Assembly (NCBI RefSeq): GCF_002003665.1 | Contig: NZ_JATM01000002.1 | Span: 124,001 to 188,000 of the forward strand | Length of the DNA: 64,000 nucleotides | Origin: Bombella intestini | GTDB taxonomy: Bacteria; Pseudomonadota; Alphaproteobacteria; Acetobacterales; Acetobacteraceae | Reading direction: 5' to 3' | Shown here: positions 2,187 through 58,278 of the stretch, piece by piece | Position numbering within the stretch: position 1 is the stretch's first letter | Layout: each line of letters begins with the position of its first letter | The notes under the pieces: model-generated | The model's database searches: none | What the model saw: the letters and a program-made list of their open reading frames with translations, nothing else | Told to the model about the DNA's origin: nothing | Program-made: the position numbers and the translations under genes

Positions 2187-3059
2187 ATGAAAAAAAGGAA
2201 AACTGCCATGAGATTGATTTGCGTTGGTGATAGTCCGAAGAACATGGACGGACGGCCCTGCTCCACTCTGTCTGAAGCTGTTTCCGAAGGAGGAATCTTT
2301 CTGCGTATTTCCGGACGGGAGGGTGTGCTGAGTGCCCTGCGTAATGATCAGTCCGATGTGGCTGTCATTCAGCAGACTAACCCAGACCCGTTGCTAATCC
2401 GCACGATTCGTAATAACCGCTTCAGCCTGCCAATTTTGGTCATTGCACGAAACCTTACAGCCCATAATGTGGCCGAGGCCCTCGCCGCTGGTGCAGATGA
2501 CTGCGTGCCTATTACAGTCGGGCCGGTGGAACTTCTTGCACGTCTAAAGGCCATTGTCCGGCGTGTTATGGATCATGGCGTGACCAGTCAGATCATCACG
2601 GTGGGTCGTTTGACGGTGAAGGAAGATACCCGTGAGGTGCTGGTGGATGATGAGCTTCTGCCGCTGACGCAGGGTGAATATGACATTATGTCCCTTATGG
2701 TACGCCGTCGGGGTAGCCTGCTGAACAAGGCGGCCATCCTATCTACCCTGTATGCTGGACGGGAAAAGCCTATCAGCAAGACCATTGATGTGATGGTTTG
2801 CCGTATTCGCCAGAAACTGCGCGCAAGAGGGATTCAGAAGCCTTTCATCACGAGTTGGGGCATGGGCTATCGGCTGAATGAAGAAGCCTTCCTGCCACTT
2901 GGTGCCCGTGCAGAGGATGAGGTTGCACCTGTCCAGCAGGCCATCCGAGAAGCCAGCATACCCGTTTCTGCCGGTCTGGGTGTAACAGCTATGGCTGGTG
3001 AGATGGAGGGACGCCGTCTTGTAGAAAATGTGGCCAGACAACCGGTCCATCAGGATTAA
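2187..3059 (+). CDS. CtrA/FtcR-like OmpR-family regulator with degenerate receiver
   Basis: 290 aa from the ATG at 2187, which has a TAGGAGACG ribosome site; an ATG at 2127 lacks one. Residues ~8-125 have a receiver-like fold and ~136-234 a winged-helix DNA-binding domain ending in WGMGYRLNE, close to the CtrA and FtcR/Rem pattern. The receiver appears inactive: the phospho-acceptor position after strand 3 reads VIQQT (no Asp), the strand-1 acidic pair is reduced to one Asp, and the strand-5 Lys is missing. About 50 extra residues follow the DNA-binding domain. It heads the fliL-fliM run, so a role as flagellar master regulator (as FtcR in Brucella, Rem in Sinorhizobium) is inferred. Confidence 0.75.
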   Translation: MKKRKTAMRLICVGDSPKNMDGRPCSTLSEAVSEGGIFLRISGREGVLSALRNDQSDVAVIQQTNPDPLLIRTIRNNRFSLPILVIARNLTAHNVAEALAAGADDCVPITVGPVELLARLKAIVRRVMDHGVTSQIITVGRLTVKEDTREVLVDDELLPLTQGEYDIMSLMVRRRGSLLNKAAILSTLYAGREKPISKTIDVMVCRIRQKLRARGIQKPFITSWGMGYRLNEEAFLPLGARAEDEVAPVQQAIREASIPVSAGLGVTAMAGEMEGRRLVENVARQPVHQD

Positions 3060-4853: not shown

Positions 4854-5397
4854 TCAGCTCATCATCGAGATTCTTTTGATGGTTGTCCTGATAGCCGGGA
4901 TTATCAGCTCACGCCTTATCGTCCGGCGGCTGGGTGTTATTCGGGACTCCTACACAGCGTTGAATGAGATGGTTGCTACGCTTGATGCCTCGACAGAGCA
5001 GATGAATCATATGTTCGAGCGTGTCCGGCATGAGGTGACACAGGGAGACAGGCGTTTGTCTGTCTTGCTGGAGCGTGCCCGCAATGTAGAAGAAGATCTT
5101 ATCGACCAGCAGAAAATGACGAAAGAGACTGCCGAGTCTCTGTCTGGTGTTCTGGCACATTCGGAAAAGCAGGAATCTGATCTAAATGGTGTGGTGGAAG
5201 CAGCCAAGGCTATGCTGCACCAGCTAGAAGAGCAGTTGGAAAAACAGCAGAAAGCTCTTGAGCAAACCAAAGTGGTTGAATCTGCTCAACTAGAGGAAGA
5301 GTCTGCCCCTCATTTCTCTGATCAGATTGTTGTGCCTGTCCCGGGGCGGCTGCGCAGCCCAAGGCCTTATTTACGGAAAAATGAATCTGATGGCTAA
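4837..5397 (+). CDS. DUF6468-like membrane-anchored coiled-coil protein
   Basis: 186 aa from the ATG at 4837 (ribosome site AGAGGGGAC). One N-terminal transmembrane helix (~residues 6-25) is followed by a basic stop-transfer (RLIVRRLG), then a long charged coiled coil (~35-155) and a C-terminal VPVPGRLRSPRPYLRK tail. Genes of this type sit directly downstream of fliM in many alphaproteobacteria and are annotated DUF6468; the function is not established. The overlap with fliM suggests translational coupling and a role at the basal body. Confidence 0.7.
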   Translation: MLLNNSQLIIEILLMVVLIAGIISSRLIVRRLGVIRDSYTALNEMVATLDASTEQMNHMFERVRHEVTQGDRRLSVLLERARNVEEDLIDQQKMTKETAESLSGVLAHSEKQESDLNGVVEAAKAMLHQLEEQLEKQQKALEQTKVVESAQLEEESAPHFSDQIVVPVPGRLRSPRPYLRKNESDG

Positions 5398-5473
5398 AGA
5401 GCGGTATTTTTCTTTGCCCCGTTATTTTGAAATGTCCTTTGTAAGAAACATGTAAGGTTTCTGTGTTTCTATT

Positions 5474-5513
5474 CATCTGTCAACGACGAGATCGTTGTTT
5501 TGTAATACAGATG
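5474..5513 (+). promoter_or_regulatory. Two-part stem-loop in the flagellin 5' leader
   Basis: Outer arms CATCTGT (5474-5480) and ACAGATG (5507-5513) enclose an inner hairpin CAACGA (5481-5486), loop CGAGA, TCGTTG (5492-5497), leaving a 9-nt one-sided bulge (5498-5506). The structure ends 4-5 nt before the flagellin ribosome site AGGAG (5518-5522). It could control translation or mRNA stability, comparable in concept to the FlbT-controlled flagellin leader of Caulobacter; that parallel is inference. Confidence 0.5.
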
Positions 5514-5530
5514 TGCAAGGAGAAAAGACT

Positions 5531-6493
5531 GTGAGTCTTTCTATCAATACCAACCAGTCCTCAATGGTTGCTCTGGAAACACTGAACACCACGCAGAGCG
5601 ATCTGGCTAAGACAGAAAATGCCGTCTCCACCGGTAAGAAAGTTGCTAACGCTTCTGATAACCCGGCTGCTTTCGGTATTTCCTCCCAGATCGGGGGTGA
5701 TATTGCTGGTCAGAGCGCTGTTAATGATGGTCTGAGCTATGCTTCCCAGATTGTCAGCTCCACAAACTCTGCTGCTAACAGCATCATCAACATTCTGCAG
5801 AACGTCCAGAATGCTGTTACCACTGTTGGTAACAACATGGGCAACGAGTCCTCCTTGGGCCAGCTCGACAAGGAGCTGACAGGCTACATGAAGAGCATTG
5901 ATACCATTGCTCGCAACGCTACGACAAAGGGGATCAACCTGCTGTTCGGTGGTACAGCTGCTAGCACCAGCACAAGCCTGGGTATCACCGCCAACAGCCT
6001 GACCTTTGTTACAGGTCTCCAGGGTGATACACAGACACTGACAGGCTATGGCAGCCTGATTGCTTCTACGACTGGTGGGTCCGGCGCTACGCTGACAGAT
6101 GTTCTGGGTCTGACAACCAATGGTCAGGCTGAAGGTGACCCGACCTCCAATAACTTCCTGACAACAACATCCACTGGTGTTGCACTTGCCTACGCTGGTA
6201 AGGATCCGACCGAGGCTGTTGCTGCTATGGTCGGGCGTGTTCAGAAGGCCATTGTTGCCATGACGAACGTTACGTCTGATCTGGGTTCTAACCAGCAGAC
6301 CATCGACACTATGAGCTCCTATGGCCAGAAGTCTTCTGACTCCCTGACGGCTGCCTCTGGTGCCCTGACAGATGCTGATATGTCTGCTGAGTCCGCTAAG
6401 CTGACCTCCCTGCAGACCAAGCAGTCCCTTGGCATTAAGTCTCTCTCCATTGCCAATGGTCAGTCTCAGAACATTCTTTCCCTGTTCCAGTAA
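5531..6493 (+). CDS. fliC: Flagellin
   Basis: 320 aa from the GTG at 5531, chosen because AAGGAGAA lies 7 nt upstream and the protein then begins VSLSINTNQSSM, the normal flagellin start. The conserved N-terminal D0/D1 helices (~1-135, with ISSTGKK-like STGKKVANASDNPAAFGIS) and C-terminal D1/D0 (~235-320, ending SIANGQSQNILSLFQ) flank a short Gly/Ser/Thr-rich variable centre with many possible glycan acceptor residues. It is the only flagellin in the window. It has its own leader hairpin and a strong terminator, so it is probably transcribed as a single gene. Confidence 0.93.
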   Translation: MSLSINTNQSSMVALETLNTTQSDLAKTENAVSTGKKVANASDNPAAFGISSQIGGDIAGQSAVNDGLSYASQIVSSTNSAANSIINILQNVQNAVTTVGNNMGNESSLGQLDKELTGYMKSIDTIARNATTKGINLLFGGTAASTSTSLGITANSLTFVTGLQGDTQTLTGYGSLIASTTGGSGATLTDVLGLTTNGQAEGDPTSNNFLTTTSTGVALAYAGKDPTEAVAAMVGRVQKAIVAMTNVTSDLGSNQQTIDTMSSYGQKSSDSLTAASGALTDADMSAESAKLTSLQTKQSLGIKSLSIANGQSQNILSLFQ

Positions 6494-15011: not shown

Positions 15012-15273
15012 GGAGACTGTTCCTAAAGGCTATATCATGACAAGAATAGAGATATCATGCCATCTGAACATGTTTTATGGAAGAGTATATCATTACTTGA
15101 ACATTAATATATGGCTTAATTAATGATTTATTCTTACAATTAACCTTGATAATGGTTTTTATGTCGGTTTATGGGGAAGGTACGGTTAATGTGTTTTCTG
15201 TGCCTGCCATTGTCAGGGTGGCCTTGCGTTGCTGGAAACGTGGGTGATGGCAGAGTTGTGAGGATGTTCATTT
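15012..15273. promoter_or_regulatory. Divergent flgF/flgG promoter region with CCTTGAT motif
   Basis: A 262-nt AT-rich gap between two divergent rod genes. CCTTGAT is at 15144-15150, inside AATTAACCTTGATAATGG and almost equidistant (~130 nt) from both start codons, so one site could serve both directions. AATTAACCTTG matches one arm of the inverted repeat upstream of fliF. Confidence 0.5.
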
Positions 15274-17905: not shown

Positions 17906-17930
17906 CCTTGATGCGGTCATGATTTCAAGG
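17906..17930. promoter_or_regulatory. CCTTGA/TCAAGG inverted motif upstream of the bactofilin gene
   Basis: CCTTGAT at 17906-17912 and TCAAGG at 17925-17930 form an inverted pair. TTGATG and TTTATT with a 17-nt spacer could also act as -35 and -10. The site lies ~130 nt before the bactofilin start. Confidence 0.4.
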
Positions 17931-18039
17931 TTTATTAATTGACTGGCCTTAAGATGTGTTCTTAGTCTTTTCATTGAAAGGCTTTATGTAGCCTATCTAT
18001 CATGGCCATATTGATGGCGTAAAAATAAAGGGGTAGTGA

Positions 18040-18540
18040 ATGTCGGATTCAAAACAGCCGGAAGGCTTCATTCCCAGCGGTCTGGTTGTAGATAATCTTT
18101 GCGGGACCTTGGAAGGGAGCCTGACTATCGCCGGTGAAGTGGAGCATGTCGAGCTTCAGGCTGGCCAGCTCTGCGTCACAGAAACGGGCGTTATGAAGGA
18201 TGGTCAGGTAGAAGCGACATCCATCATCATTGATGGCAGCGTATCCGGTGTGACGTTCACAACGCCGCGTCTTTCTGCTGGGGCTGGTGCTCGTATTTCG
18301 GATTGCGTGATTGAGATGGGGAGCCCGACAGGCTGTGCCATCCATGAGGATGCCCATTTTGAGGGCGATGTGCGTATTTCTGTTTCTCGCAAGGGAGGAG
18401 CCAGAAAGGCTGACGCCAGCAAGGTAGAGCCGCAGGCTAGCATACCGGCTGGAGATGATGAGCCAGACCCGCATTGGCCTTCCCAGACGCCTGATATCAG
18501 CGAGGCGGATCAAGACGCTGATATTCCATTGGGGGGCTGA
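18040..18540 (+). CDS. Bactofilin-family protein
   Basis: 166 aa. Residues ~18-115 show the short beta-helix repeat pattern of the polymer-forming cytoskeletal family (PF04519): LCGTLEGSLTIAGEVEHVELQAGQLCVTETGVMKDGQVEATSIIIDGSVSG. A charged, disordered tail follows. Bactofilins self-polymerise and localise cell-wall or appendage factors. Its placement between flgH and a MotE-like gene, with TGATG coupling to the latter, suggests a scaffold for the flagellar base. Bactofilins are known near flagellar genes in a few other lineages, but the role here is inference. Confidence 0.75.
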   Translation: MSDSKQPEGFIPSGLVVDNLCGTLEGSLTIAGEVEHVELQAGQLCVTETGVMKDGQVEATSIIIDGSVSGVTFTTPRLSAGAGARISDCVIEMGSPTGCAIHEDAHFEGDVRISVSRKGGARKADASKVEPQASIPAGDDEPDPHWPSQTPDISEADQDADIPLGG

Positions 18541-19167: not shown

Positions 19168-19551
19168 ATGAAAGAGAAACGAATGATGAGGCGGCTTTGT
19201 TTCGTTCATGGTCTGTGGCAGCGTATGTTGGTCATGCTGCCTGTTGTTGCTGGCCTGACAGCCTGTGCGCCGGACTATCTCGCCAGTAAACTGACAGGGC
19301 GGGACTGTCAGGCCGGTTATTTGGCCGAGGGAGAAGATTGGTGCAACCCACCGGAACGTGTCCTACCCCCTCAGCCTTACTGCACACAGAGTTGGAATGG
19401 TGTTGATTGCTGGGCACGGCCAGAACTGACACCCAACATGGCTCATGAGGTTTACGAAGGGCCACGAGGATTGACGACACAGCAGAATGCAAACCGTCTC
19501 ATGATACCGGAAGGTAAGGCACCGCCTTCCAATCCGTATTACGCCCCTTAA
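19168..19551 (+). CDS. Small lipoprotein of unknown function
   Basis: 127 aa from the ATG at 19168; ATGs at 19183 and 19186 are alternatives and the ribosome site is weak for all. A lipobox LTAC follows a hydrophobic core (MLVMLPVVAG). The mature part is Cys- and Pro-rich (DCQAGYLAEGEDWCNPPERVLPPQPYC) and contains four further Cys residues that could form disulfides. It closes the bactofilin/MotE-like operon. I do not recognise a family. An outer-membrane role near the L ring is only a guess from context. Confidence 0.65.
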   Translation: MKEKRMMRRLCFVHGLWQRMLVMLPVVAGLTACAPDYLASKLTGRDCQAGYLAEGEDWCNPPERVLPPQPYCTQSWNGVDCWARPELTPNMAHEVYEGPRGLTTQQNANRLMIPEGKAPPSNPYYAP

Positions 19552-19574
19552 AGGTTTGTTTGCAAAAGTTGCTA

Positions 19575-19623
19575 CAATTAACCTTGCTATCTACTTTACA
19601 CGCCATCATAGCAAGGTTAATTG
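19575..19623. promoter_or_regulatory. Perfect 16-nt inverted repeat upstream of fliF
   Basis: CAATTAACCTTGCTAT (19575-19590) and its exact reverse complement (19608-19623) are separated by 17 nt. The arms contain the AACCTTG core seen in other flagellar intergenic regions. No T-tract follows, so it is more likely an operator for a dimeric regulator than a terminator. It lies 106 nt before the fliF start. Confidence 0.6.
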
Positions 19624-19728
19624 ATGGTGTGGTTAAGATGTCCTCTTCCGAGTAGGGCAGATTATGGTGAATACCGGAAACAGCATGTCTGGCGTCCGGG
19701 GTGAAAGCAGCAGGTAGATACCCGTCAT

Positions 19729-21360
19729 ATGCAGTTTGATAAGCTCCGTTTGCCGAAGATCATGGAAGGGCTGAAGAATCTGGGCCGTATGCGGCTTGCA
19801 GCCCTTGGGATTGTCGGCGTGCTTCTTCTGCTGTCTTTGGGGGTGATTGCTTTCCATAATCGATCAGAGCCTATGGCTCTGCTTTATGGTGACCTGGAGC
19901 TGAATGAAGCTGCCGAGATGGTGGATGATCTGGCCAAGGCTCATATTCCGACAACAACAGGGCCGGATGGTCGTAGTCTGTATGTTCCGGGTAATGATGT
20001 AGCACAGGCTCGTCTTCTGCTGGCAAAGGCTGGCCTACCCGGTGGTGGTGCCGTAGGGTATGAACTCTTTGATAAGAGTGGCACACTGACCAGTACCCAG
20101 TTTGAACAGGGCATTAATGAAACTAGAGCGTTGGAAGGGGAGCTGGAGCGGTCCATTCGTTTAATTCATGGCGTGCGGAATGTGCGGGTTCATCTTGTTC
20201 TGCCGCATCGTGATCTTTTCTCTACAGAAACGAATCCTTCTCAGGCGAGCGTCATTCTAGATGTCGGTCGGTCTGGTGCCGTGTCGGAAGATGCAATTGC
20301 AGCAATCCAAAATCTAGTGTCGGCCGCTGTGCCGGGGTTACGGACGCACGGCATTTCCATTGTAGATACACGGGGTGACGTTCTGGCTCGTCCGGGTGAT
20401 CCGGACAGTCTCGCCGGACAGGAATCTTCGCTTGAGAAGCAGCGTCATTCCGAGGAACAGCGTCTTGCGCAGGCGGTAGAAGATATCCTAACGCCCACGT
20501 TGGGTATGGGGCATGTTCGGGCCCGTGCCGCCGTAACCATGAATACGGACATCATTCATGAGACGGATGAATCTTACGACCCTAACCAGCAGGTTCTACG
20601 TTCTCAGAGTATGAGTACGGACAAGAGCGCCAATACCGAAGCTAACCAGAACACCAGTGTAGGTAATAACCTTCCGAACGCTAATGCAGGCAATAACCGT
20701 ACTGGCTCCAGCGAGGAGCGGACGGATGAGACCAACAATTATGAGATTGGCAAACGGACCCGTGTCATTAATCAAACTCGGCCCCGTGTGTCCCGTATCA
20801 GTCTTGCTGTTATGGTCGATGGAACGGTTACTACCGACAAGGCGGGCAAGCCATCGTGGAAGCCGTTGGATGAGGCAGAGGTCAAGCGGCTGACCCAGCT
20901 TGTGCAGACGGCTATCGGGTACGATAAGGCCCGTGGGGATGAGGTTAATGTGGTGTCTATGCCGTTCCGTGTGGATGGCGGGGCCGATCTGCCTCAGCAA
21001 GATACGCCATTCTTCACCCGGGAGATGATGATCTATTTGGCGGAATGGATTGTCCCCATTCTGCTTCTTCTGGGGGCCGCCGCTATGCTGCTCGGGCCCA
21101 TCCTGCGCCGTGCCCGTAAGGGAGTTGAAACAGATGGTACCGCCGCCGGTGGCTCTGCGGCCGGAGCTGCTGGAGGTTCTGCCGAGGGTGAGGCAGGACG
21201 TAGCGACCGCATTAGCGTGGAAGGGGTGGAAGGCGAGATGCGCCGTGAGGCTCTGGCCCGTGTGGTGCAGCGTGTTGAAGAGAATCCTGAAGACGCCATC
21301 GCTGTTGTTCGCAACTGGCTGGCTGAGCCGGAGCCCCCCAAACAGGCGGCAGAAAGCTGA
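19729..21360 (+). CDS. fliF: Flagellar MS-ring protein FliF
   Basis: 543 aa, the usual length. A first transmembrane helix at ~24-42 is followed by the YscJ/FliF secretin-like ring domains (LLYGDLELNEAAEMVDDLAKAHIPT; GYELFDKSGTLTSTQFEQGINETRALEGELERSI). A variable periplasmic loop, a second helix at ~437-458 and a C-terminal cytoplasmic tail (MRREALARVVQRVEENPEDAIAVVRNWL) that binds FliG complete it. It starts the fliF-fliG-fliH-fliN-fliO-fliP operon. The start has only a weak ribosome site; an ATG at 19759 is an alternative. Confidence 0.96.
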   Translation: MQFDKLRLPKIMEGLKNLGRMRLAALGIVGVLLLLSLGVIAFHNRSEPMALLYGDLELNEAAEMVDDLAKAHIPTTTGPDGRSLYVPGNDVAQARLLLAKAGLPGGGAVGYELFDKSGTLTSTQFEQGINETRALEGELERSIRLIHGVRNVRVHLVLPHRDLFSTETNPSQASVILDVGRSGAVSEDAIAAIQNLVSAAVPGLRTHGISIVDTRGDVLARPGDPDSLAGQESSLEKQRHSEEQRLAQAVEDILTPTLGMGHVRARAAVTMNTDIIHETDESYDPNQQVLRSQSMSTDKSANTEANQNTSVGNNLPNANAGNNRTGSSEERTDETNNYEIGKRTRVINQTRPRVSRISLAVMVDGTVTTDKAGKPSWKPLDEAEVKRLTQLVQTAIGYDKARGDEVNVVSMPFRVDGGADLPQQDTPFFTREMMIYLAEWIVPILLLLGAAAMLLGPILRRARKGVETDGTAAGGSAAGAAGGSAEGEAGRSDRISVEGVEGEMRREALARVVQRVEENPEDAIAVVRNWLAEPEPPKQAAES

Positions 21361-21372
21361 GGAGACGCAACC

Positions 21373-22458
21373 ATGGCAGAACAGGCACTCTCTGCGGAGA
21401 CAGGTAATGAAGTTTCATCATCCAGCGTGGCACCACCTAGCCTGACGGCAGGGATGAGCGGTAGCCGGAAGGCTGCGATCTTGATGTTGGCCATTGGGCA
21501 GGAACAGTCTGCCCGTATTTTCCGTTCCCTTCAGGAAGATGAGGTGCGGGATATTTCGCGGGCTATGTCGTCTCTGGGGCTGGTTAAGGCCTCAGTTGTG
21601 GAAGCTGTCTGTAGCGAATTTTCGCAGAAATTCGCAAGTTCGGATGGTTTTGTTGGTAGTTACGAAACGACAGAAGATTATCTGAAGCGTGCCCTCCCGG
21701 CTGAAATGGTCGAGAAGATCATGGAGGACATTAGAGGGCCTTCTGGGCGAAGTGTCTGGGCCAAGATGGGCAATATGCCCGAAACAGCTCTTGCCAATTA
21801 TCTGCGTAACGAACAGCCGCAGACGGTCGCTGTTATTCTGAGCTATATTTCACCGGCCCATGTGGCCCGTGTTCTTTCACTCTTCCCGGAAGATTTCGCT
21901 ACGGATGTTATCATGCGCATCTTGCATATGAGTCCGGTTAGCAAGGATGTGTTGGAGAGTTTGGAAACAACCCTGCGCAAGGAGCTTATTACTGCCTTTG
22001 GTCGGTCCACAAAGCGGGACAGCTACGCTTTTGTAGCGGAGGTATATAATAATTTCGATCGGAAGACCGAAGCCCTTCTGACAGAACAGCTTGGTCGCCG
22101 GAGCGAGGAAGATATGGAGAAGGTGAACAAGCTGAAATTCACCTTCGATGACATCAAGCGTCTGACACCGGATGATATGATGCGTGTTATGGCGGCCATC
22201 AATCGTGATGGTGAGGCCAAAAGCAGGCTGCCTCTGGCCCTCAAGGGTACGAATGAGAGTATTCGGCAACTCTTCTTCGGCTGTGTTTCCAAACGTGCTG
22301 CTGGCCTTCTGGAAGATGAGATCCGAGGGCTGGGGGCTGTCCGTATGAGGGATGCTGAAGCAGCCCAGATGGAGCTTATCACCCTTATCAAGACAATGGC
22401 CAACGATGGAGAAATTGATATTTCGCCATCCTCGTCTGATGATGAGATCATCGAGTGA
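21373..22458 (+). CDS. fliG: Flagellar motor switch protein FliG
   Basis: 361 aa. The FliG N-domain (~30-130) is followed by the middle EHPQ-like segment, here NEQPQTVAVILSYISPAHVARVLSLFPE (~140-167), and the C-terminal torque domain ending with LRGTNESIR-like LKGTNESIRQLFFGCVSKRAAGLLEDEI. FliG couples the stator to the rotor. AGGAGACG precedes the start, 12 nt after fliF. It ends overlapping or adjacent to fliH. Confidence 0.95.
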   Translation: MAEQALSAETGNEVSSSSVAPPSLTAGMSGSRKAAILMLAIGQEQSARIFRSLQEDEVRDISRAMSSLGLVKASVVEAVCSEFSQKFASSDGFVGSYETTEDYLKRALPAEMVEKIMEDIRGPSGRSVWAKMGNMPETALANYLRNEQPQTVAVILSYISPAHVARVLSLFPEDFATDVIMRILHMSPVSKDVLESLETTLRKELITAFGRSTKRDSYAFVAEVYNNFDRKTEALLTEQLGRRSEEDMEKVNKLKFTFDDIKRLTPDDMMRVMAAINRDGEAKSRLPLALKGTNESIRQLFFGCVSKRAAGLLEDEIRGLGAVRMRDAEAAQMELITLIKTMANDGEIDISPSSSDDEIIE

Positions 22459-22463
22459 CGCCA

Positions 22464-23228
22464 ATGGGACAGCAGCAGCAAACAGGCTTGGAGGCTACGT
22501 CTTTTGCCGGGAGCCGGGCCTTCAGTGATAGTTTGGAGGATTTTTCCGCTCACGAGCCTGCCATGCAGGCAGGTGTGGAGCAGAGGGATGATGCGGCTGA
22601 CCAGGAGGATGAAGCCCCCACTGAGGAACCGGTTGTCACGCTCCATCCCGATGAGTTGGAACAATTAAAACGGGATGCTTGGCAGCAGGGACATGATGCG
22701 GGCGAGCAGGCGGCTGGTCAGCAGCTTTCTGGCCAGATGGCGGAGGCCGTGCGGCAGGTTCTGGCCTTCATGGAGGAGGAAGAAAACCGCCGTCATGACA
22801 TTGCGACACAAATGGCTGATCTGTTTGTGCAGGGCGTATGCCAGACGGTGGAAGAGCTGGTCGCTGGTGATTTGTCCCGCACAAAACTGAGCCGCCATCT
22901 GGCGGAGGATGCCGCCGCACTTGTCCAGCGGTGTGAGGGGCCGGTTAGTCTGACCTGCTCGGTAGCGGATGAAGCCGCCTTACGGGCTGCATTGGCCGGG
23001 TTGAAGGGTGTGTCCCTGCATGTGGAAGCGGACCGCCAGATGGGACATCTCACGGTTGCGGCAGAAGAGACACAGATTGTTCTGGACCAGCAAAAATGGG
23101 CGGAGGGGGTTCGTCAGCGTGTGGATGATGCCATGCAGGCCCTGACCCGCCCACACGCTGCGGAGGCTCGCCCCATCGTCAACCCGTCCCCGGATGAAAA
23201 ACAGACAGCAGAGCATGAAGGAGAGTAA
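22464..23228 (+). CDS. fliH: Flagellar export regulator FliH
   Basis: 254 aa from the ATG at 22464; a GTG at 22455 overlapping the fliG stop is possible. An acidic disordered N-terminus leads to the FliH/HrpE-like region (KRDAWQQGHDAGEQAAGQQLSGQMAEAVRQVLAFMEEEENRR), a stalk rich in Ala/Gln, and a C-terminal domain with LHVEADRQMGHLTVAAEETQIVLDQQKWAEG. FliH dimers hold the FliI ATPase at the export gate. Position between fliG and fliN supports the call. Confidence 0.85.
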   Translation: MGQQQQTGLEATSFAGSRAFSDSLEDFSAHEPAMQAGVEQRDDAADQEDEAPTEEPVVTLHPDELEQLKRDAWQQGHDAGEQAAGQQLSGQMAEAVRQVLAFMEEEENRRHDIATQMADLFVQGVCQTVEELVAGDLSRTKLSRHLAEDAAALVQRCEGPVSLTCSVADEAALRAALAGLKGVSLHVEADRQMGHLTVAAEETQIVLDQQKWAEGVRQRVDDAMQALTRPHAAEARPIVNPSPDEKQTAEHEGE

Positions 23229-23230
23229 CG

Positions 23231-23617
23231 ATGGCAGAGGATAACAACACAGCGGAAACGGCGCAGGAGGCGCAGCAGACGCACGCACCAGAGGTCGATC
23301 TGGCTGATTTTGCCTCGGATGGACAAGAAGAGAGCAGACCCCTGCATGACACTCAACAAGAAAAAGAGCGGGAACGGGAGGCGATCCTTGATGTTCCAGT
23401 CAAGATTACGGCTGTTGTGGGTGATGTGAAAATGCCGGTTCGGGACCTTGTACGTCTTGGTCGTGGTGCTGTGGTGCCGTTGAACCGGAAACTTGGTTCT
23501 TCGATTGATATTTACGCTAATGACAGGCTAATCGCCCGTGGTGAAATCACCATCATTGAGGATGATAATATCGCCGTGACAATGACGGAGATCATGTCTT
23601 CATCCGCTAGCACATGA
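23231..23617 (+). CDS. fliN: Flagellar motor switch protein FliN
   Basis: 128 aa. A charged ~45-residue leader precedes the SpoA domain: DVPVKITAVVGDVKMPVRDLVRLGRGAVVPLNRKLGSSIDIYANDRLIARGEITIIEDDNIAVTMTEIM (~54-122), diagnostic for FliN. It forms the base of the C-ring with FliM. A GAAGGAGA site supports the start, and its stop overlaps the fliO start (ATGA). Confidence 0.96.
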   Translation: MAEDNNTAETAQEAQQTHAPEVDLADFASDGQEESRPLHDTQQEKEREREAILDVPVKITAVVGDVKMPVRDLVRLGRGAVVPLNRKLGSSIDIYANDRLIARGEITIIEDDNIAVTMTEIMSSSAST

Positions 23618-24012
23618 TGGTAGCCCCTGTTGGAGAGACGCACGGTTCTGATGCCATGATGCACGCTGTCATGGGATTTCACATGAACCCGCTTCTAGCT
23701 CTTCTGCTTGTTGTAGGGCTGATTTTTATCACGCCTTGGTGCGTGCGGCGGCTGAAGCACCGTATGCCTGCCCTGTTGAATGATGGCGGCATGAAGGAGC
23801 GTGCCCTGAAGGTACAAGAAGCTATCCCCCTAGGGGCGAAACGGACCTTGTTCTCCGTAGTGGTCCGGGATGCGGAGGGGCGGCGGGCGACAGCCATTAT
23901 TCTGACGGGCGGCCCGTCTGATTTGTGCGTTGGCTGGTTGGGGGCTGGTGCGGCGTCTACGGCAGAATCATGCCCTATGGAAAAAGCAGGACAGAGGCAG
24001 GAGACGACATGA
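23614..24012 (+). CDS. fliO: Flagellar biosynthesis protein FliO
   Basis: 132 aa. One transmembrane helix (~25-45, NPLLALLLVVGLIFITPWCVRRL) is followed by a small cytoplasmic domain with the FliO pattern ALKVQEAIPLGAKRTLFSVVVRDAEGRRA...ILTGGPSDLCVGWL. FliO assists FliP assembly into the export gate. It is coupled by ATGA overlaps to fliN upstream and fliP downstream. Confidence 0.85.
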   Translation: MMVAPVGETHGSDAMMHAVMGFHMNPLLALLLVVGLIFITPWCVRRLKHRMPALLNDGGMKERALKVQEAIPLGAKRTLFSVVVRDAEGRRATAIILTGGPSDLCVGWLGAGAASTAESCPMEKAGQRQETT

Positions 24013-24875
24013 TGGCGGACTGTGCGATGGAAGGCCGTCCTGCCTCTGAGAGCAGGGAAAAAATCGTAGCGACTTGGCGGCGTCTACGGCGGGCTGTGCT
24101 GTTGGGGGTGGTAGGGGTGTTTAGTCTTGTAGGGGCTATCACACTGCTGTGTTTTTTAGCTCATCCGGCTACAGCTCAGTCCGTTACGTTGGATATGGGA
24201 AAAGGTGGCGGAATTGGTGAGGCCGGGACGACAAGCCGCCTTATCCAGCTTACGGCCCTTGTGGCGTTTCTGTCTCTGGCACCCAGCCTGCTGGTGATGA
24301 TGACAGCCTTTACCCGTATCATCATTACGCTTTCCCTTCTGCGGAGTGCCATCGGTGCGCAGGGAACGCCGCCCAATATGGTGCTGGTGGCTTTGGCCCT
24401 GATCCTGACTTTGTTTGTCATGCAACCTACTTTGGAACGCTCATGGCAGCAGGGCATTGAACCTCTGATGGATGGCCGGGTAGAAGAGATGGCCGGACTT
24501 CAGGCAGCGGCGGAGCCGTTCCGTGATTTCATGATCCATAACGCCCGTCCGAATGATGTAGCTATTTTTTATCATCTTGCTGGTCTCAAGCCCCAGCCTG
24601 CACCAGCCAACGGGGTTGCACCACCTCCGCCGTGGCGGGTCATTGTTCCGGCCTTCATGGTTGGAGAGCTAAGCCGTGGGTTCGAGATGGGCTTTCTGCT
24701 TTATCTGCCTTTTCTGGTAATCGACCTTGTCACCTCTAGCGTGTTGATGAGCTTGGGCATGATGATGTTGCCCCCTCCGACTATTTCCCTACCTTTCAAG
24801 CTGATTTTCTTTGTGCTTGTGGATGGGTTTCAGATGGTATCGGGTGGGTTGGTGCGCAGCTTTGGCGGGGGATAG
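24009..24875 (+). CDS. fliP: Flagellar export gate protein FliP
   Basis: 288 aa from the ATG at 24009, which overlaps the fliO stop and has AGGAGACG upstream; a longer frame from 23925 is unlikely. A signal peptide or first helix (~32-56, ending ATAQ) is followed by FliP hallmarks: SLAPSLLVMMTAFTRIIITLSLLRSAIG, the periplasmic RPNDVAIF-like loop, and the VPAFMVGELSRGFEMGFLLYLPFLVIDLVTSSVLMSLGMMMLPP block. FliP pentamers form the core of the secretion channel with FliQ and FliR, which are encoded near 51-52 kb. Confidence 0.97.
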   Translation: MMADCAMEGRPASESREKIVATWRRLRRAVLLGVVGVFSLVGAITLLCFLAHPATAQSVTLDMGKGGGIGEAGTTSRLIQLTALVAFLSLAPSLLVMMTAFTRIIITLSLLRSAIGAQGTPPNMVLVALALILTLFVMQPTLERSWQQGIEPLMDGRVEEMAGLQAAAEPFRDFMIHNARPNDVAIFYHLAGLKPQPAPANGVAPPPPWRVIVPAFMVGELSRGFEMGFLLYLPFLVIDLVTSSVLMSLGMMMLPPPTISLPFKLIFFVLVDGFQMVSGGLVRSFGGG

Positions 24876-24883
24876 TCCCCGCC
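24864..24883. terminator. GC-rich hairpin between convergent fliP and flhF
   Basis: GGCGGGG (24864-24870), loop GATAGT, CCCCGCC (24877-24883). The stem includes the fliP stop region and ends 5 nt before the flhF stop. There is no clear T-tract, so terminator function is only likely. Confidence 0.45.
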
Positions 24884-24887
24884 TTGC

Positions 24888-25718
24888 TCACCCCGGCAGT
24901 ACTAGAAGCCGCCGGGCAAGAATGGCAGGTGTTAGTTGGGTAAAGCCTTCATTGATGCTGCCGGAATAGCTGCCATAGGTTAGGGAGAGGCCGCAGGCTG
25001 CCGCTGTGATGATGCTGCCAATGCGGCCGGATTGCTCCATACGGCTGGCAATCATCGATTTTGCACCATATTGCTGGAAGGCAGCGGCAATGTCCGTACT
25101 TTCTTCCGGGTCCATCCCCGCCGGGATGACGAGGGAGAGGTTGGCTTCCGTACGGGCTACGACATCTCTCATTTCTGTCATGGCCTTAGGGGAGTAGACG
25201 CAGAGCCCCGGCAAATCCACCAGAATGATGCGGTTATAGCTGTCGATAAAGCGGGGATTTATACCGCCATAGGCCTTCATGAGGTCGATGTCGCAGCCAC
25301 GCAAGATGGAGGCGAGTTTGATGTAACTACCCGGTGTGCTGTCGCATGCAAGGACGAGGGGCCGCCTTATTCTGCCACCGGACTGTCGGGCTTGTCGGGC
25401 ATAGCGGGCGGCTAGTTTGGCTAGAGTTAGGGACTTGCCGGAACCTGAAGCCCCTCCTAGTGCCATCGGCACCCCCAGTTTTAGGGGGAAGGGGGAAAAG
25501 TCGATCATACGTTCTAGCCCTGCGGCCAGACTGCTACCCGCCATGGCGTTGATCAGCTCCTGCGGTATGGAGTGCCACGCCAGAATGTCCGGGATGCTGA
25601 GGGCGTTGGCCGGAAGGGCTACGTCTCCATTAGTTCCTTGTGCGTCATTTAGCCGGGCCGGGCCAGCGGAACCGGGGGGAAGCTGGTGGGAGGTCTGATA
25701 GGGGGTAAAGCTGCTCAT
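24888..25718 (-). CDS. flhF: FlhF-like SRP GTPase with altered motifs
   Basis: 276 aa, shorter than typical FlhF (~350-450), mainly the NG domain. The P-loop is intact (GGASGSGKS, 88-96). The switch region where FlhF normally has DTYR reads CDSTPGSYIKLASIL, G3 reads ILVDLPGL (168-171 DLPG rather than DTAG), and the G4 TKxD position reads SRME (225-228). FlhF places polar flagella and needs GTP-dependent dimerisation; loss of TKxD would weaken guanine specificity. It follows flhA by 44 nt on the same strand, the standard flhA-flhF order. No flhG is seen. Confidence 0.75.
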   Translation of the reverse strand: MSSFTPYQTSHQLPPGSAGPARLNDAQGTNGDVALPANALSIPDILAWHSIPQELINAMAGSSLAAGLERMIDFSPFPLKLGVPMALGGASGSGKSLTLAKLAARYARQARQSGGRIRRPLVLACDSTPGSYIKLASILRGCDIDLMKAYGGINPRFIDSYNRIILVDLPGLCVYSPKAMTEMRDVVARTEANLSLVIPAGMDPEESTDIAAAFQQYGAKSMIASRMEQSGRIGSIITAAACGLSLTYGSYSGSINEGFTQLTPAILARRLLVLPG

Positions 25719-27970: not shown

Positions 27971-28073
27971 CCTGACTGATGCTGTGTTGTCAGGGCCTTC
28001 CAGTTGCGGGAAAGGCCTGTAACAGGGTTTATTAAGGCATGTTATCTATGGATTTTTAATTTAACCATTAAAA

Positions 28074-28088
28074 CCTTGCCCATCAAGG
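28074..28088. promoter_or_regulatory. CCTTG/CAAGG inverted repeat in the flhA-TPR gap
   Basis: CCTTG (28074-28078) and CAAGG (28084-28088, as part of ATCAAGG) are separated by five bases in a 166-nt divergent gap. This is the same core as at 2058, 15144, 17906 and 52485. Confidence 0.4.
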
Positions 28089-28136
28089 CTTATAAGGACA
28101 TGTTATTTTCATGAAGTATGGCCTTTAAGGTCATTT

Positions 28137-31877: not shown

Positions 31878-31920
31878 ACAAGGCTTAATCATAAATAATT
31901 CACCTTGTATATTCCATATA
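31878..31920. promoter_or_regulatory. ACAAGG/CCTTGT motif pair in the SLT-flgI gap
   Basis: ACAAGG (31878-31883) and CCTTGT (31903-31908) form an inverted pair in the 95-nt divergent gap, related to the CCTTGAT core found elsewhere in the cluster. Confidence 0.35.
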
Positions 31921-31954
31921 TAAGGTTAGATTGGAGCGTAGGAGACTATGCTTG

Positions 31955-35293: not shown

Positions 35294-35488
35294 GGCTATC
35301 CTTCTTATCGTACCGCTCTTATCACATGCTTTATAGTGGATATATGGCATGATTGCAGGGCACATCATATGATACTATGGTTAAAGTAAGTCCTTTTTAG
35401 CCTTATATTAATTATTAATGCTTTAATGTTGGGCGGAATGCTGGCAGAGGTCATGTCAGCGACATGCTTCTATGGAGGGAGGTGGCTT

Positions 35489-46207: not shown

Positions 46208-46489
46208 GTTATATTTCCTGCATCGCGTGAACAGGTTGGCAGTTAGGTTATGATCTTGCCATGTTATGATATGTAGAAAGTATTAAATGCTAGAAAACCG
46301 AGATGTTGTTTTTGTTATAGCCTTTAATAGCCATAAAAGTTTCCCACTGGCGGTGGGTATTTAAGATATATTTAAGGATGTTATGCTATATGGGGGCCAT
46401 CAGAACGCTTTATGTGGAAAGCTTTCTGATTGCTTTCTACGCACTTTACGACATGATTGGCTTGTATACCGGGTTCGTGAGGACGTGAT
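46208..46489. other. AT-rich gap between the polyproline gene and the 102-aa frame
   Basis: 282 nt without a convincing gene. It contains AT-rich promoter-like sequence on both sides and the hairpin-like CCCACTGGCGGTGGG near 46347-46361. No named element recognised. Confidence 0.4.
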
Positions 46490-47133: not shown

Positions 47134-47844
47134 ATGACATTACAATCAGCAAGTACGTTCATTGAGAAAGGGATCGGGCGTCTTCTCTCACGGTTCCAGC
47201 AAGAATTTTCGTCATCCCAGACATTGAGTGATATTGTCGGTCAGGCGGATCGTCTGCGTGTAATGACAGAAACTCTTTTGGCACTATCCCAGCATTACCC
47301 CGAACGGGCTGGTGCGATATTGAATGTCCTGTCTGGTCTTGCAGATGTTGGTATCATTCATGATATGGCCAGTGCAGCCGATGAGATCGCTGCTCTTGCT
47401 CGCAAGATGGAAGCTGGTCTGGTTTCCGAGAAGGAAGGTAGCAACCAGTCGTTCACTGGGCTTCCGGCTCGCTTGCCGCAGCAGGAAAGCTATGGCATGA
47501 GCGGGCTTGGTAGCCACTTCGTGCAGGGTATGTCCCCGGAAGTGAAAGAAAAGCCCGGCCAGTGGATTGCAGACCGGAGCGAGCCTTATTGTGCACCGGA
47601 AGATTCCGTTTTTAGTGATGAGATCATCTGTCTGCATTGCGGCGGGTCCTTCAGCATGCTGAAGCGTCATATTGAACGGCAGCATCGGCAGAGCCCTGAT
47701 GGTTACCGTGTTTATTGGGGGCTATCACCAGACTATCCCATGGCTTGTGAGAGCTATTCTACGATGAAGAAGCTGGAGGCCTCCAGAACCGGGCTAGGTC
47801 ATTATGACCGTGGGAAGAAAGGCCGCTCTCGCATCAAGGCTTGA
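47134..47844 (+). CDS. mucR: MucR-family zinc-finger regulator with N-terminal extension
   Basis: 236 aa. The C-terminal ~80 residues are the MucR/Ros domain: a C2H2 finger with Cys166, Cys169, His179 and His184 (CLHCGGSFSMLKRHIERQH), then YWGLSPDYPMACESY and the basic end GLGHYDRGKKGRSR. MucR proteins bind AT-rich DNA and control motility, exopolysaccharide and the cell cycle in alphaproteobacteria. The first ~145 residues are helical and unlike the usual short MucR N-terminus. The isolated position between flagellar operons suggests a local regulatory role. Confidence 0.85.
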   Translation: MTLQSASTFIEKGIGRLLSRFQQEFSSSQTLSDIVGQADRLRVMTETLLALSQHYPERAGAILNVLSGLADVGIIHDMASAADEIAALARKMEAGLVSEKEGSNQSFTGLPARLPQQESYGMSGLGSHFVQGMSPEVKEKPGQWIADRSEPYCAPEDSVFSDEIICLHCGGSFSMLKRHIERQHRQSPDGYRVYWGLSPDYPMACESYSTMKKLEASRTGLGHYDRGKKGRSRIKA

Positions 47845-52491: not shown

Positions 52492-52637
52492 AACGCCATG
52501 TTTTTTATCTTAACATAAGGTTTATGTAAGGTTATTTTCATATCTATGCACGTAAATGGCTTTGTTTTTCCTTTTGTATTCGGTATCAGGAGGGGCGGTT
52601 AGAGCGATACAGAATGCACTATCAGGGAGGATAGATC

Positions 52638-55784: not shown

Positions 55785-56186
55785 ATGAGCATGACGCATA
55801 CAGGCGGAACGGACCTTCTAAATCTGGCGGAACGGCGGATGAGCTGGCTTCAGAACCGTGAATCCGTGCTGGCGGGTAATGTGGCCAATGCCAATACGCC
55901 CCATTACAGCCCTAAGGATGTATCGCCGTTTCAAGGTGTTTTGGAGAATGCCCATACCGTAGCACTGAAGCGCACGCAGCCGGGGCATATGTTGGGGCCT
56001 GCGGGGGAGACGCATGCCCGCAAGCAGGGCGGGCGGGCCTCTCTAGATGGCAACCGTGTGGTGCTGGAGGATGAGCTGGGAAAGATTGCCCAGACGAGTG
56101 ATCAGCAGCGTTTCGCCACTACTGTTTATGGCCGGTACATGGGGCTTTACGGCATGGCTCTTGGTGCAGGTGGCGGCGGACAGTAA
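55785..56186 (+). CDS. flgB: Flagellar proximal rod protein FlgB
   Basis: 133 aa. The FlgB pattern is clear: LAERRMSWLQNRESVLAGNVANANTPHYSPKDVSPFQGVLENA (~14-56), then LEDELGKIAQTSDQQRFATTVYGRYMGLYGMALG at the end. AGGAGTGA precedes the start. It forms the first rod segment with FlgC, whose gene follows by 41 nt. Confidence 0.93.
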   Translation: MSMTHTGGTDLLNLAERRMSWLQNRESVLAGNVANANTPHYSPKDVSPFQGVLENAHTVALKRTQPGHMLGPAGETHARKQGGRASLDGNRVVLEDELGKIAQTSDQQRFATTVYGRYMGLYGMALGAGGGGQ

Positions 56187-56227
56187 GGCCCGGGCGGGCA
56201 AAGCGGGACAGGAGAGAGGAGGATAGA

Positions 56228-56638
56228 ATGGATTTTTCCGATACAATTGGTGTTTCAGCCGCCGGGATGCGAGCACAGACAGCCCGCTTGCGTGTTGCTG
56301 CCGAAAATCTTGCCAATGCGGAGACAACAGGGTCTTCCCCCGGTGCTGACCCATATCGCCGCAAAACGGTGACCTTCCGGGAAGCGTTGGACCGTGCCAG
56401 TGGTGTTTCCAGTGTGGCGGTGCGGTCTGTCGGGGAGGATCAGTCTGATTTTCAGATGCGGTATGATCCTGCCCATCCGGCCGCCAATGAGCAGGGTTAT
56501 GTGAAGATGCCTAATGTCAGCTCCATTGTGGAGATCATGGACAGTCACGATGCCCAACATTCTTACGAGGCCAATCTTAATACCATGCAGGTTACCCGCT
56601 CCATGCTGGCACGGGCTATCAATCTGATGAAGGATTGA
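56228..56638 (+). CDS. flgC: Flagellar proximal rod protein FlgC
   Basis: 136 aa, the usual length. It starts MDFSDTIGVSAAGMRAQTARLRVAAENLANAETTG and ends with the VKMPNVSSIVEIMDSHDAQHSYEANLNTMQVTRSMLARAINLMK helix, near-invariant in FlgC. GGAGAGAGGAGGATAG precedes the start. It is followed by a MotE-like gene 12 nt downstream. Confidence 0.96.
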   Translation: MDFSDTIGVSAAGMRAQTARLRVAAENLANAETTGSSPGADPYRRKTVTFREALDRASGVSSVAVRSVGEDQSDFQMRYDPAHPAANEQGYVKMPNVSSIVEIMDSHDAQHSYEANLNTMQVTRSMLARAINLMKD

Positions 56639-56650
56639 GGGGGAAACGTC

Positions 56651-57472
56651 ATGAGAGGGACTGTCAGACCCATGAGAAAACCCGGATTTTCGCTGAGCAA
56701 GATCACCAATCTCGCCTCTTGCCTGATGACAGTGCTGCTGGCGTTGAACCTCCATTCTCTTGCGGCACAGATCAGTACTCCCTCTGCTCAGAGTGAGGAG
56801 CCTTCTAGTAAATCGAGGGGGGCTTCCCCTCATGGTACGGGTGCAAAGGCTGCGCCTGTAACGCCTGCCCCTGCCGGTGTGAAGGCACCTGAGAGCTTGC
56901 GGCCTAGTAAGCAGCGTCTTTTCATGAATCATCTTCAGGGATGGACGCCCGCCAATGGTCTGGCAGATGATGACCCCGCTACGGGTCAAGTTGACGAGGA
57001 GCAGCCGGACTCCCGTGTTCGTTTGGCTGAACAGGGGCTAAGTGGAGAATTGGCTACTCATCGGCGGGCCGTACAGGGGCAGGAAGAGAGTTTCCAACAG
57101 CAGCAGAAGGCTCTTGAGCAGCAACAGAAAGAATTGGATGAGAAGTTGCAGGCGTTGGGTCGGAATGCGTCTGAACTTTCAGCCCAGCAGGAGCAGCGCC
57201 GGCAGGATGTAGAGCAGAGCATTGCCCGGTTGGCTCATATTTATGAGCAGATGCCACCTCGTGATGCTGCTGCCATGTTCAATATTCTGGACATGAGGGT
57301 GCTTGTTCCCGTGGCACAGCATATGATTCCTCGTCGGATTTCGGATGTCATTGGCAACATGCAGCCTGACCGTGCGAATATTCTATCTCAGTATCTGGCT
57401 GGCATCCGCAAGCTCAGTTCCGATACGATTAACCGTATGAATAGTCCGGTTGATTCTAATATTGCTCCGTGA
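56651..57472 (+). CDS. MotE-like periplasmic protein (MgtE-N fold), copy 2
   Basis: 273 aa. A transmembrane/signal helix at ~20-40 and a Pro/Ala linker are followed by a Gln-rich coiled coil (~130-190) and an MgtE-N-like domain: ARLAHIYEQMPPRDAAAMFNILDMRVLVPVAQHMIPRRISDVIGNMQPDRANILSQYLAG (~197-256). The domain closely parallels copy 1 at 18540-19157. A GAGGGGGAA site precedes the start. Membership in the flgB-flgC operon supports a motor or stator role. Confidence 0.75.
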   Translation: MRGTVRPMRKPGFSLSKITNLASCLMTVLLALNLHSLAAQISTPSAQSEEPSSKSRGASPHGTGAKAAPVTPAPAGVKAPESLRPSKQRLFMNHLQGWTPANGLADDDPATGQVDEEQPDSRVRLAEQGLSGELATHRRAVQGQEESFQQQQKALEQQQKELDEKLQALGRNASELSAQQEQRRQDVEQSIARLAHIYEQMPPRDAAAMFNILDMRVLVPVAQHMIPRRISDVIGNMQPDRANILSQYLAGIRKLSSDTINRMNSPVDSNIAP

Positions 57473-57480
57473 GGTTGCTG

Positions 57481-57507
57481 CCCCCCTCCGTAGTTATGGG
57501 AGGGGGG
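57481..57507. terminator. GC hairpin between the MotE-like gene and the accessory block
   Basis: CCCCCCTCC (57481-57489) pairs perfectly with GGAGGGGGG (57499-57507). It marks the boundary between the convergent flagellar and accessory genes. No T-tract is present. Confidence 0.5.
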
Positions 57508-57514
57508 GATGATC

Positions 57515-58165
57515 TCACTGGCCTTGCATGCAGCCATCGGGTGCGACCCCGGGGGGGAGGGGCTGGTTGAGGAATGTGCTGAGGGCCACGGTGCTATTGC
57601 AGTAGCCGCCCATGGGAAGGGTGGCGATTTCTTCAAAGTAGTTATTCTCTGGCATGGCGACATCCGATGCCTGCGGAGCTAGTTTGAACAGGCTGATATG
57701 GGCTGTTGTCTCTGTTTTCGCATAGGTTGAATCACCAAGCGGCCGTTCCATGCGGATCATGAAGAGATTCCAACGGCCTTGGCTGCTCTCTACTCTGTAA
57801 AACCCGATGGTGGTTAGCGCATCTTCTTCGTTATGAAGGGCATCTTTCAGGGTGTACTCTTTCCCTTGTGTATCTTGGAAAGGCACAGCACAGCGAAGGG
57901 TCGCATTGCGGGGGCAGGGTTCAAAGGCGAGATATTCGTTCCATGACCATGCATTAGCGTTGTCGTGATAGAGCTTGAGGAGTTGAAGGACCTCACCTTT
58001 TTTGATGGGTACTTGCGCTTCTGCATCTAGTTTGACGGGAATGGCTTGGACTGTATCACGGACATCCCGAATTGTAGACGCCGCATAGCTTGCGCTGGAT
58101 AGGCACGTTTGCATAAGTGCAATAGCAACTTTGAAAGTTATGGAGTGTTTTTTTTGTTTTGTCAT
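57515..58165 (-). CDS. Exported protein of unknown function
   Basis: 216 aa. A signal peptide covers ~1-28 (SSASYA-AST). The mature part has two Cys close together (FEPCPRNATLRCAVPF) and a third and fourth near the end (GGYCNS, DGCMQ), suggesting disulfides, plus a beta-rich middle (GFYRVESSQGRWNLFMIRMERP). No strong ribosome site is visible. No family recognised. It follows the GTPase pair on the same strand but a strong hairpin (58240-58278) separates them, so it may be transcribed on its own. Confidence 0.65.
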   Translation of the reverse strand: MTKQKKHSITFKVAIALMQTCLSSASYAASTIRDVRDTVQAIPVKLDAEAQVPIKKGEVLQLLKLYHDNANAWSWNEYLAFEPCPRNATLRCAVPFQDTQGKEYTLKDALHNEEDALTTIGFYRVESSQGRWNLFMIRMERPLGDSTYAKTETTAHISLFKLAPQASDVAMPENNYFEEIATLPMGGYCNSTVALSTFLNQPLPPGVAPDGCMQGQ

Positions 58166-58239: not shown

Positions 58240-58278
58240 AAAGCGTTAGTGATAAGTAAGTCATCACTAACGCTTTTT
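58240..58278. terminator. Strong hairpin after the GTPase/membrane gene pair
   Basis: Perfect 14-bp stem AAAGCGTTAGTGAT (58240-58253) / ATCACTAACGCTTT (58263-58276) with a 9-nt loop. The T-tract is stronger on the plus strand (TTTTT, 58274-58278) than on the minus strand, where the upstream genes are read. Confidence 0.75.

Follow-up and report, generated by a model that had tools for sequence, protein, structure and literature searches.

In Bombella intestini, an acetic acid bacterium whose genus is associated with bees, the gene fliF occupies positions 19729..21360 (+ strand) of the 64-kb stretch of DNA analysed here, referred to throughout as the window. Its product matches Pfam YscJ_FliF and YscJ_FliF_C, the closest named matches are from Bombella (99% with B. 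favorum), and it is presumably the first gene of the operon that is controlled from the DNA upstream. Between the reading frame that ends at 19551 and the start of fliF lies a perfect inverted repeat, the sole inverted pair returned by a repeat search of 19300-19900, whose left arm, CAATTAACCTTGCTAT (19575..19590, +), and right arm (19608..19623, -) are 100% complementary over 16 nt, are separated by 17 nt and are without a T-tract, just as the earlier note had described. CTTTACA, a possible -35 element, stands between the arms (19594..19600, +), its first six letters being intact in nine of ten Bombella genomes. A different element, AGCAGGTAGATA, is found immediately 5' of fliF at 19709-19720; it is invariant in all ten of these genomes and exceeds a plain ribosome-binding site in length.

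The view that such a repeat would hardly arise by chance is borne out by the analytic expectation of 5.9e-4 per window for an arm of at least 16 nt, and no other perfect inverted repeat in the window with a loop of 3-60 nt has arms as long (a perfect 14-nt repeat with a 9-nt loop is also present, at 58240-58276). Sixteen control stretches of the same genome (20 kb each, coding and intergenic) yielded 17 repeats with arms of at least 13 nt, 16-nt arms being seen in two. None of these 17 carries the fliF arm sequence; their loops are of 4-11 nt in all but one (25 nt), and nine have at least four consecutive A or T at the outer end of an arm or close to it, as would a terminator. When the whole 2.02-Mb genome was searched for the 16-mer, as had been suggested, exact matches were found only at the two fliF arms, while the partial copy said to lie in the flgF/flgG gap is indeed there (AATTAACCTTG, at 15138).

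Lack of conservation in close relatives was one of the findings that the earlier note would have taken as refuting it, and a half-site pair is found upstream of fliF in all ten flagellated Bombella genomes (fliF being present in 10 of the 11 genomes of the genus and absent from G007), although as members of one genus these are not independent of one another. The symmetry itself is kept much less evenly: arm-to-arm matches out of 16 are 16 in the window's own genome (G000), 14 in G001, 15 in G004, 11 in G003, 9 in G002, 10 in G008, 12 in G009, 9 in G005, 9 in G010 and 11 in G006, so that arm identity falls to 9-12/16 in seven of the ten. For each genome 7-11 of these matches fall in the outer 11 arm positions and only 1-5 in the inner five. 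The CCTT core is intact in 19 of the 20 fliF half-sites and TTAA in 14; ATTAACCTT is exact in the left arm in seven genomes and AAGGTTA in the right arm in eight; and the spacing between the arms is N17 in seven, N18 in two and N20 in one. That the outer arms are largely kept while the inner part drifts is what one would expect of a protein site rather than of a hairpin. Beyond the genus, inspection by eye revealed no facing pair upstream of fliF in two Saccharibacter, Acetobacteraceae bacterium ESL0709, Ameyamaea or Acetobacter pomorum. A further, diverged cluster of flagellar genes is present in G006 (G006:C1:1-20000, L075), the fliF of which is 68% identical to the query; its fliF upstream region is not alignable, and no half-site scoring at least 11 is present in those 20 kb.

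A matrix built only from fliF half-sites (16 of them, from eight genomes, G001 and G010 being omitted as near duplicates) was used to scan 20 other gaps, hand-chosen from the window gaps in and around flagellar genes and each taken with 90 nt of flank. At a threshold of at least 9 there were eight sites in these 5147 nt against two in 38436 nt of control DNA (binomial 1.4e-6), a density some 30 times that of the control, and at a threshold of at least 10 there were four against none (1.9e-4), the top control site scoring 9.5. The highest score, 22.4, belongs to CAATTAACCTTGATAA in the flgF/flgG gap (15137..15152, +). A half-site at 17922..17937 (-), upstream of the gene at 18040, scores 14.9 and has a facing partner 21 bp off in two of eight genomes, while flgI is preceded by a facing pair, 31896..31911 (+; 14.9) and 31917..31932 (-; 8.7), with 19 bp core to core in seven of eight genomes. 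Others lie in the gap between 35368 and 35426 (35394..35409, +; 9.3) and in that between fliE and 52638 (52523..52538, -; 11.1, with a second copy 11 bp off).

Refinement of the matrix on the gaps gave the consensus AAATTAACCTTGATAA, which is most informative at CCTT, its CC forming the strongest columns. With this matrix the left fliF arm scores 16.3, and the facing half-site in the right arm lies 31 bp away core to core. In the gap between flhA and 28137, AATTTAACCATTAAAA (28058..28073, +) has a facing partner at 28080..28095 (-; refined-matrix score 9.3), 20 bp core to core, a spacing found in four of eight genomes. At a threshold of at least 11 the window contains 15 intergenic and five coding sites, as against none in 20243 nt of control intergenic DNA; among neighbouring and ctrA-bearing stretches, L119 has one, L118 (in which chemotaxis-like genes were recognised by eye) none, L120 one plus one coding, and L121 one, and no site at this threshold is present upstream of ctrA. 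In the same genome nothing above 6.3 was found in the fliC gap or in the gap before flgL. The fliC gap (5397-5540) has a conserved block of its own, TGTAAGAA followed by TGTAA and TTCTGTG, in nine of ten Bombella (not G006), which may possibly represent a different class of flagellar promoter.

Since the flagellar gaps are AT-richer than the control (GC 0.38 against 0.48), the same gaps were also used as their own control after Markov shuffling. Held-out matrices (retrained without the gap being tested, although the starting matrix had seen all gaps) found 24 sites scoring at least 9 in ten gaps of G000, against a mean of 1.7 in the shuffles, none of 200 of which reached as many; in an earlier held-out version, 1610 nt had contained 21 sites, whereas the 20243 nt of control DNA had yielded 7.9 on average. 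TTAACC occurs eight times in the 5139 nt of intergenic DNA in the window (three of these in the fliF gap) and five times in 21096 nt of control. Shorter strings were less useful. The 9-mer ATTAACCTT fails as a genome-wide tag, occurring in 16 places against four for the reversed control, with only three in flagellar gaps and eight of the remaining 13 inside reading frames, while WARCCTTGNTA occurs in 11 places, exactly as often as its control, so that the degenerate core is unspecific when taken alone. A further pattern, AAGG[CT]T[TA]A, was picked post hoc, and the list of gaps used with it passed over some genes, so that it included about 4.8 kb of largely coding DNA (21360-24888 and 56186-57515).

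Half-site spacings probably favour whole helical turns, this being firm with the fitted matrix and less so with held-out ones. With the fitted matrix, pairs of all three orientations (same, facing and outward) cluster at spacings of 10-11, 20-22, 31-33, 41-44 and 51-55 bp; the phasing statistic R is 0.77-0.79, a value reached in none of 5000 shifted and none of 1000 column-permuted controls, although it must be remembered that this statistic treats pairs as independent. The version in which sites are jittered within each genome is fairer, and here all eight genomes are significant with the fitted matrix (p 0.0065 or less). At fliF the core spacing is 31 or 32 bp in seven of eight genomes, and 22 and 34 in G006. 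For the other gaps of G000 the fliF-only matrix gave R 0.58 at threshold 4 (20 pairs, Rayleigh p 0.0013, the pairs again not being independent), 0.63 at threshold 5 (13 pairs, p 0.006) and 0.74 at threshold 6 (seven pairs, p 0.022), only two pairs being left at threshold 7. With held-out matrices at threshold 8, jittering was significant in six of eight genomes, the exceptions being the window's own G000 (p 0.15) and G004 (p 0.39); at threshold 9, R is 0.56 over all genomes and 0.55 in G000 alone (Rayleigh p 0.026). Control gaps have too few pairs for comparison (R 0.49 with six pairs at threshold 5, 0.62 with two at threshold 6).

Three rival explanations have to be weighed against these data. 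The arms could form an RNA or DNA hairpin, acting either as the flgG operon's terminator or as an attenuator within the leader of fliF, and it is true that the repeat begins 23 nt beyond the stop of the upstream reading frame, that RNA of the window's own sequence folds to -23 kcal/mol (z -4.0) and that the outer stem still folds in G009 (-19.8 kcal/mol, z -2.3). However, in the other two of the three relatives tested the fold barely beats shuffled sequences (G004, z -1.5, for a stretch that began inside the left arm; G002, z -0.5), two inner pairs are unpaired in six of nine distinct alignment rows, and arm identity is low in most of the genus. The right arm is not followed by a run of T, no terminator-like site is present at 19540-19740 in a scan confined to loops of 3-8 nt, and no Rfam family matches at its gathering score; an intrinsic terminator, with its G+C-rich stem and T-tract, was not recognised here. 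The finding that comes nearest to a stem is that across the aligned genomes the outer stem outperforms slid versions of itself, with a covariation score above that of 492 of 500 shuffles, but this is expected in any case from two copies of one protein site. The hairpin is probably to be disfavoured, and indeed seems very unlikely. A core promoter on its own (TTTACA, 16 nt, then TTAATT or similar), the symmetry with the upstream site being coincidental, would account for the joint retention in nine of ten genomes of CTTTAC and the right-hand AAGG with 13-14 nt between them, and to the eye the gaps before flgG and flgI allow a similar reading; it sits badly with the absence of any sigma-70-like match at 19540-19740, with the occurrence of the half-site in both orientations in other gaps, and with a perfect 16-nt symmetry that coincidence would very rarely produce, and must be thought unlikely as a complete account. 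As for chance similarity of the arms, the inner five bases are perfectly matched only in the window's own genome, yet given the expectation quoted above and the conservation of the outer arms across the genus this explanation can practically be dismissed.

Because the half-site is repeated in front of other flagellar genes, the element most likely serves as a place where a flagellar regulator docks, and is less likely to be a hairpin or accidental; judged from comparison across the genus the flagellar operator appears to be real. The best reading, to which we would assign a probability of roughly 0.6, is that it is a flagellar operator at which a member of the CtrA family, either CtrA itself or the paralogue encoded at 2187-3059, binds cooperatively. 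The earlier proposal of an operator for a dimeric master regulator of the fliF operon would thus survive as far as the flagellar operator goes (it is found at fliF in 10 of 10 genomes, and at other operons), but not in its implication of a single rigid dimer palindrome. A palindrome of fixed spacing is unsupported, because the spacing varies between N17, N18 and N20, the inner five bases drift, and facing, direct and outward pairs at various spacings occur elsewhere. Instead, the repeat would comprise two facing half-sites of about 16 bp, as one member of a set serving the flagellar operons of Bombella, to which an OmpR/PhoB-type protein of the CtrA family would bind cooperatively along a single helical face, so setting transcription of the fliF operon. 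The sign of regulation may be activation through the upstream half-site, possibly combined with autorepression through the downstream one, near the presumed -10: if TTTACA (19595-19600) is the -35 and TTAATT (19617-19622) the -10, the left site would be placed for activation from upstream, and its partner on the right would overlie the -10.

With regard to what might bind, the regulator nominated by the earlier note (2187..3059, +) remains a candidate of OmpR type and CtrA-like character, but not the only one, since both CtrA and a MucR-like protein also stand. Its product matches the Trans_reg_C domain at 51.5 bits (cut-off 26.2) but not the Pfam receiver domain, and although the curated CtrA model NF045991 is the best of 42 families for it, the score of 113.8 bits is below the cut-off of 350 for a CtrA orthologue. 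The genome's CtrA, which is encoded outside the window (G000:C7:221272-221943, L049), scores 290.7 bits with the same model (best of 92 families), also below the cut-off, and the two proteins are 36% identical over 169 residues. All ten flagellated Bombella have the 2187-3059 regulator, whereas flagella-less G007 has no orthologue, only weaker paralogues; in G007 ctrA is frameshifted, its N- and C-terminal parts lying in separate frames (G007:C12:342829-343505, L100). What we take to be the recognition helix of the paralogue, SKTIDVMVCRIRQKL, differs by one residue in Saccharibacter, and yet the motif is scarce there, which counts against the paralogue as binder: in about 13 kb around fliF the refined matrix at a threshold of at least 11 finds one site in each Saccharibacter (matched by 9/200 and 15/200 shuffles), two in A. 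pomorum (3/200) and none in ESL0709 or Ameyamaea.

Co-occurrence with flagella cannot choose between these candidates, because the MucR-like zinc-finger protein of the same cluster (47134..47844, +; Pfam ROS_MUCR) shows the same pattern: the 236-residue protein is present in all ten flagellated Bombella and missing at full length from G007, where matches extend over only 74-78 residues, to shorter paralogues. If this protein were an oligomeric silencer of AT-rich promoters and the half-sites its nucleation sites, binding as an oligomer would fit sites of any orientation on one face, and the AT-richness of the flagellar gaps would also agree; however, the strongest half-site columns are the CC of CCTT and shuffled AT-rich gaps fail to yield sites, while the Ros/MucR targets described in the excerpt of PMC9779718 are A/T sequences of low consensus that contain T-A steps, AAATA being the core in the case of the Ml proteins. 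This makes the MucR-like protein an improbable binder, if a conceivable one.

Returning to the CtrA family, the 2187-3059 protein has Gln where BasR has its phospho-acceptor Asp, with QQ at this place in all 14 orthologues read. The aligned residue 51 of CtrA is Glu in seven and Ala in three of the ten flagellated Bombella (L049, L159-L167), and in 28 other Acetobacteraceae loci (best matches from 60 genomes searched; L130-L158 without L134) it is Glu in seven and Asp in 21. Glu at this position is reportedly the phosphomimetic D51E change used in Caulobacter work. It is tempting, though distinctly speculative, to suggest that a CtrA lacking its phospho-acceptor and a second, unphosphorylatable CtrA-like protein may together form a motility-dedicated, phosphorylation-independent switch that reads one-face-phased arrays of inverted and direct half-sites, the fliF repeat being the clearest of these.

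The class of half-site is already known from CtrA and OmpR-type regulators, while for acetic acid bacteria the literature searched appears to contain neither the paired architecture and its consensus nor any account of CtrA controlling flagella (this covered the CtrA and flagellar literature, that on Gluconobacter and Bombella being only skimmed). What is offered is a concrete, testable flagellar operator for this group and, if the binder should prove to be CtrA or its paralogue, a CtrA-type regulon without canonical phosphorylation that has been lost together with the flagellum.

Comparisons can be drawn with three known systems. Brucella FtcR, the type of regulator named in the earlier note, is likewise an OmpR-type flagellar master regulator, and in an FtcR mutant the activity of the fliF promoter drops; but its ChIP motif as reported in an excerpt of PMC9456535, TGTGGGCA, differs in its letters from the Bombella half-site and was set aside on that account. 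The sites bound by CtrA in Caulobacter and in other alphaproteobacteria share with those of Bombella their flagellar targets and TTAACC, which in the excerpt of PMC3692519 is the core of the CtrA half-site. Of the eight letters of the half-site TTAACCAT, as given in excerpts of PMC3692519 and PMC6180460, seven are present in the refined consensus and seven at fliF (TTAACCTT), while perfect copies occur at 28061 (+), within the 28058 half-site, and at 35384 (-), with none in 21096 nt of control. The 11-bp direct or tandem step in some Bombella gaps also recalls TTAA-N7-TTAA, but that full site is not present in the fliF gap, its sole match in the window being at 46361; Bombella has CCTT rather than CCAT and facing pairs at 19-44 bp, and at fliF its arms, unlike the classic site, keep CCTT better than TTAA. 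According to the part of PMC8116508 consulted, every order studied has its flagellar genes under CtrA control, and in Caulobacter, as excerpted from PMC4287350, half-sites near the -35 activate and those over the -10 repress. A further parallel is the fla2 system of Rhodobacter sphaeroides, where, in the excerpt of PMC6180460, flagellar operons including fliF2 are under CtrA and non-canonical spacing is tolerated; there, however, fliL2 and fliF2 share one site and flgB2 and fliI2 have two independent ones, whereas Bombella has facing half-sites at whole-turn distances.
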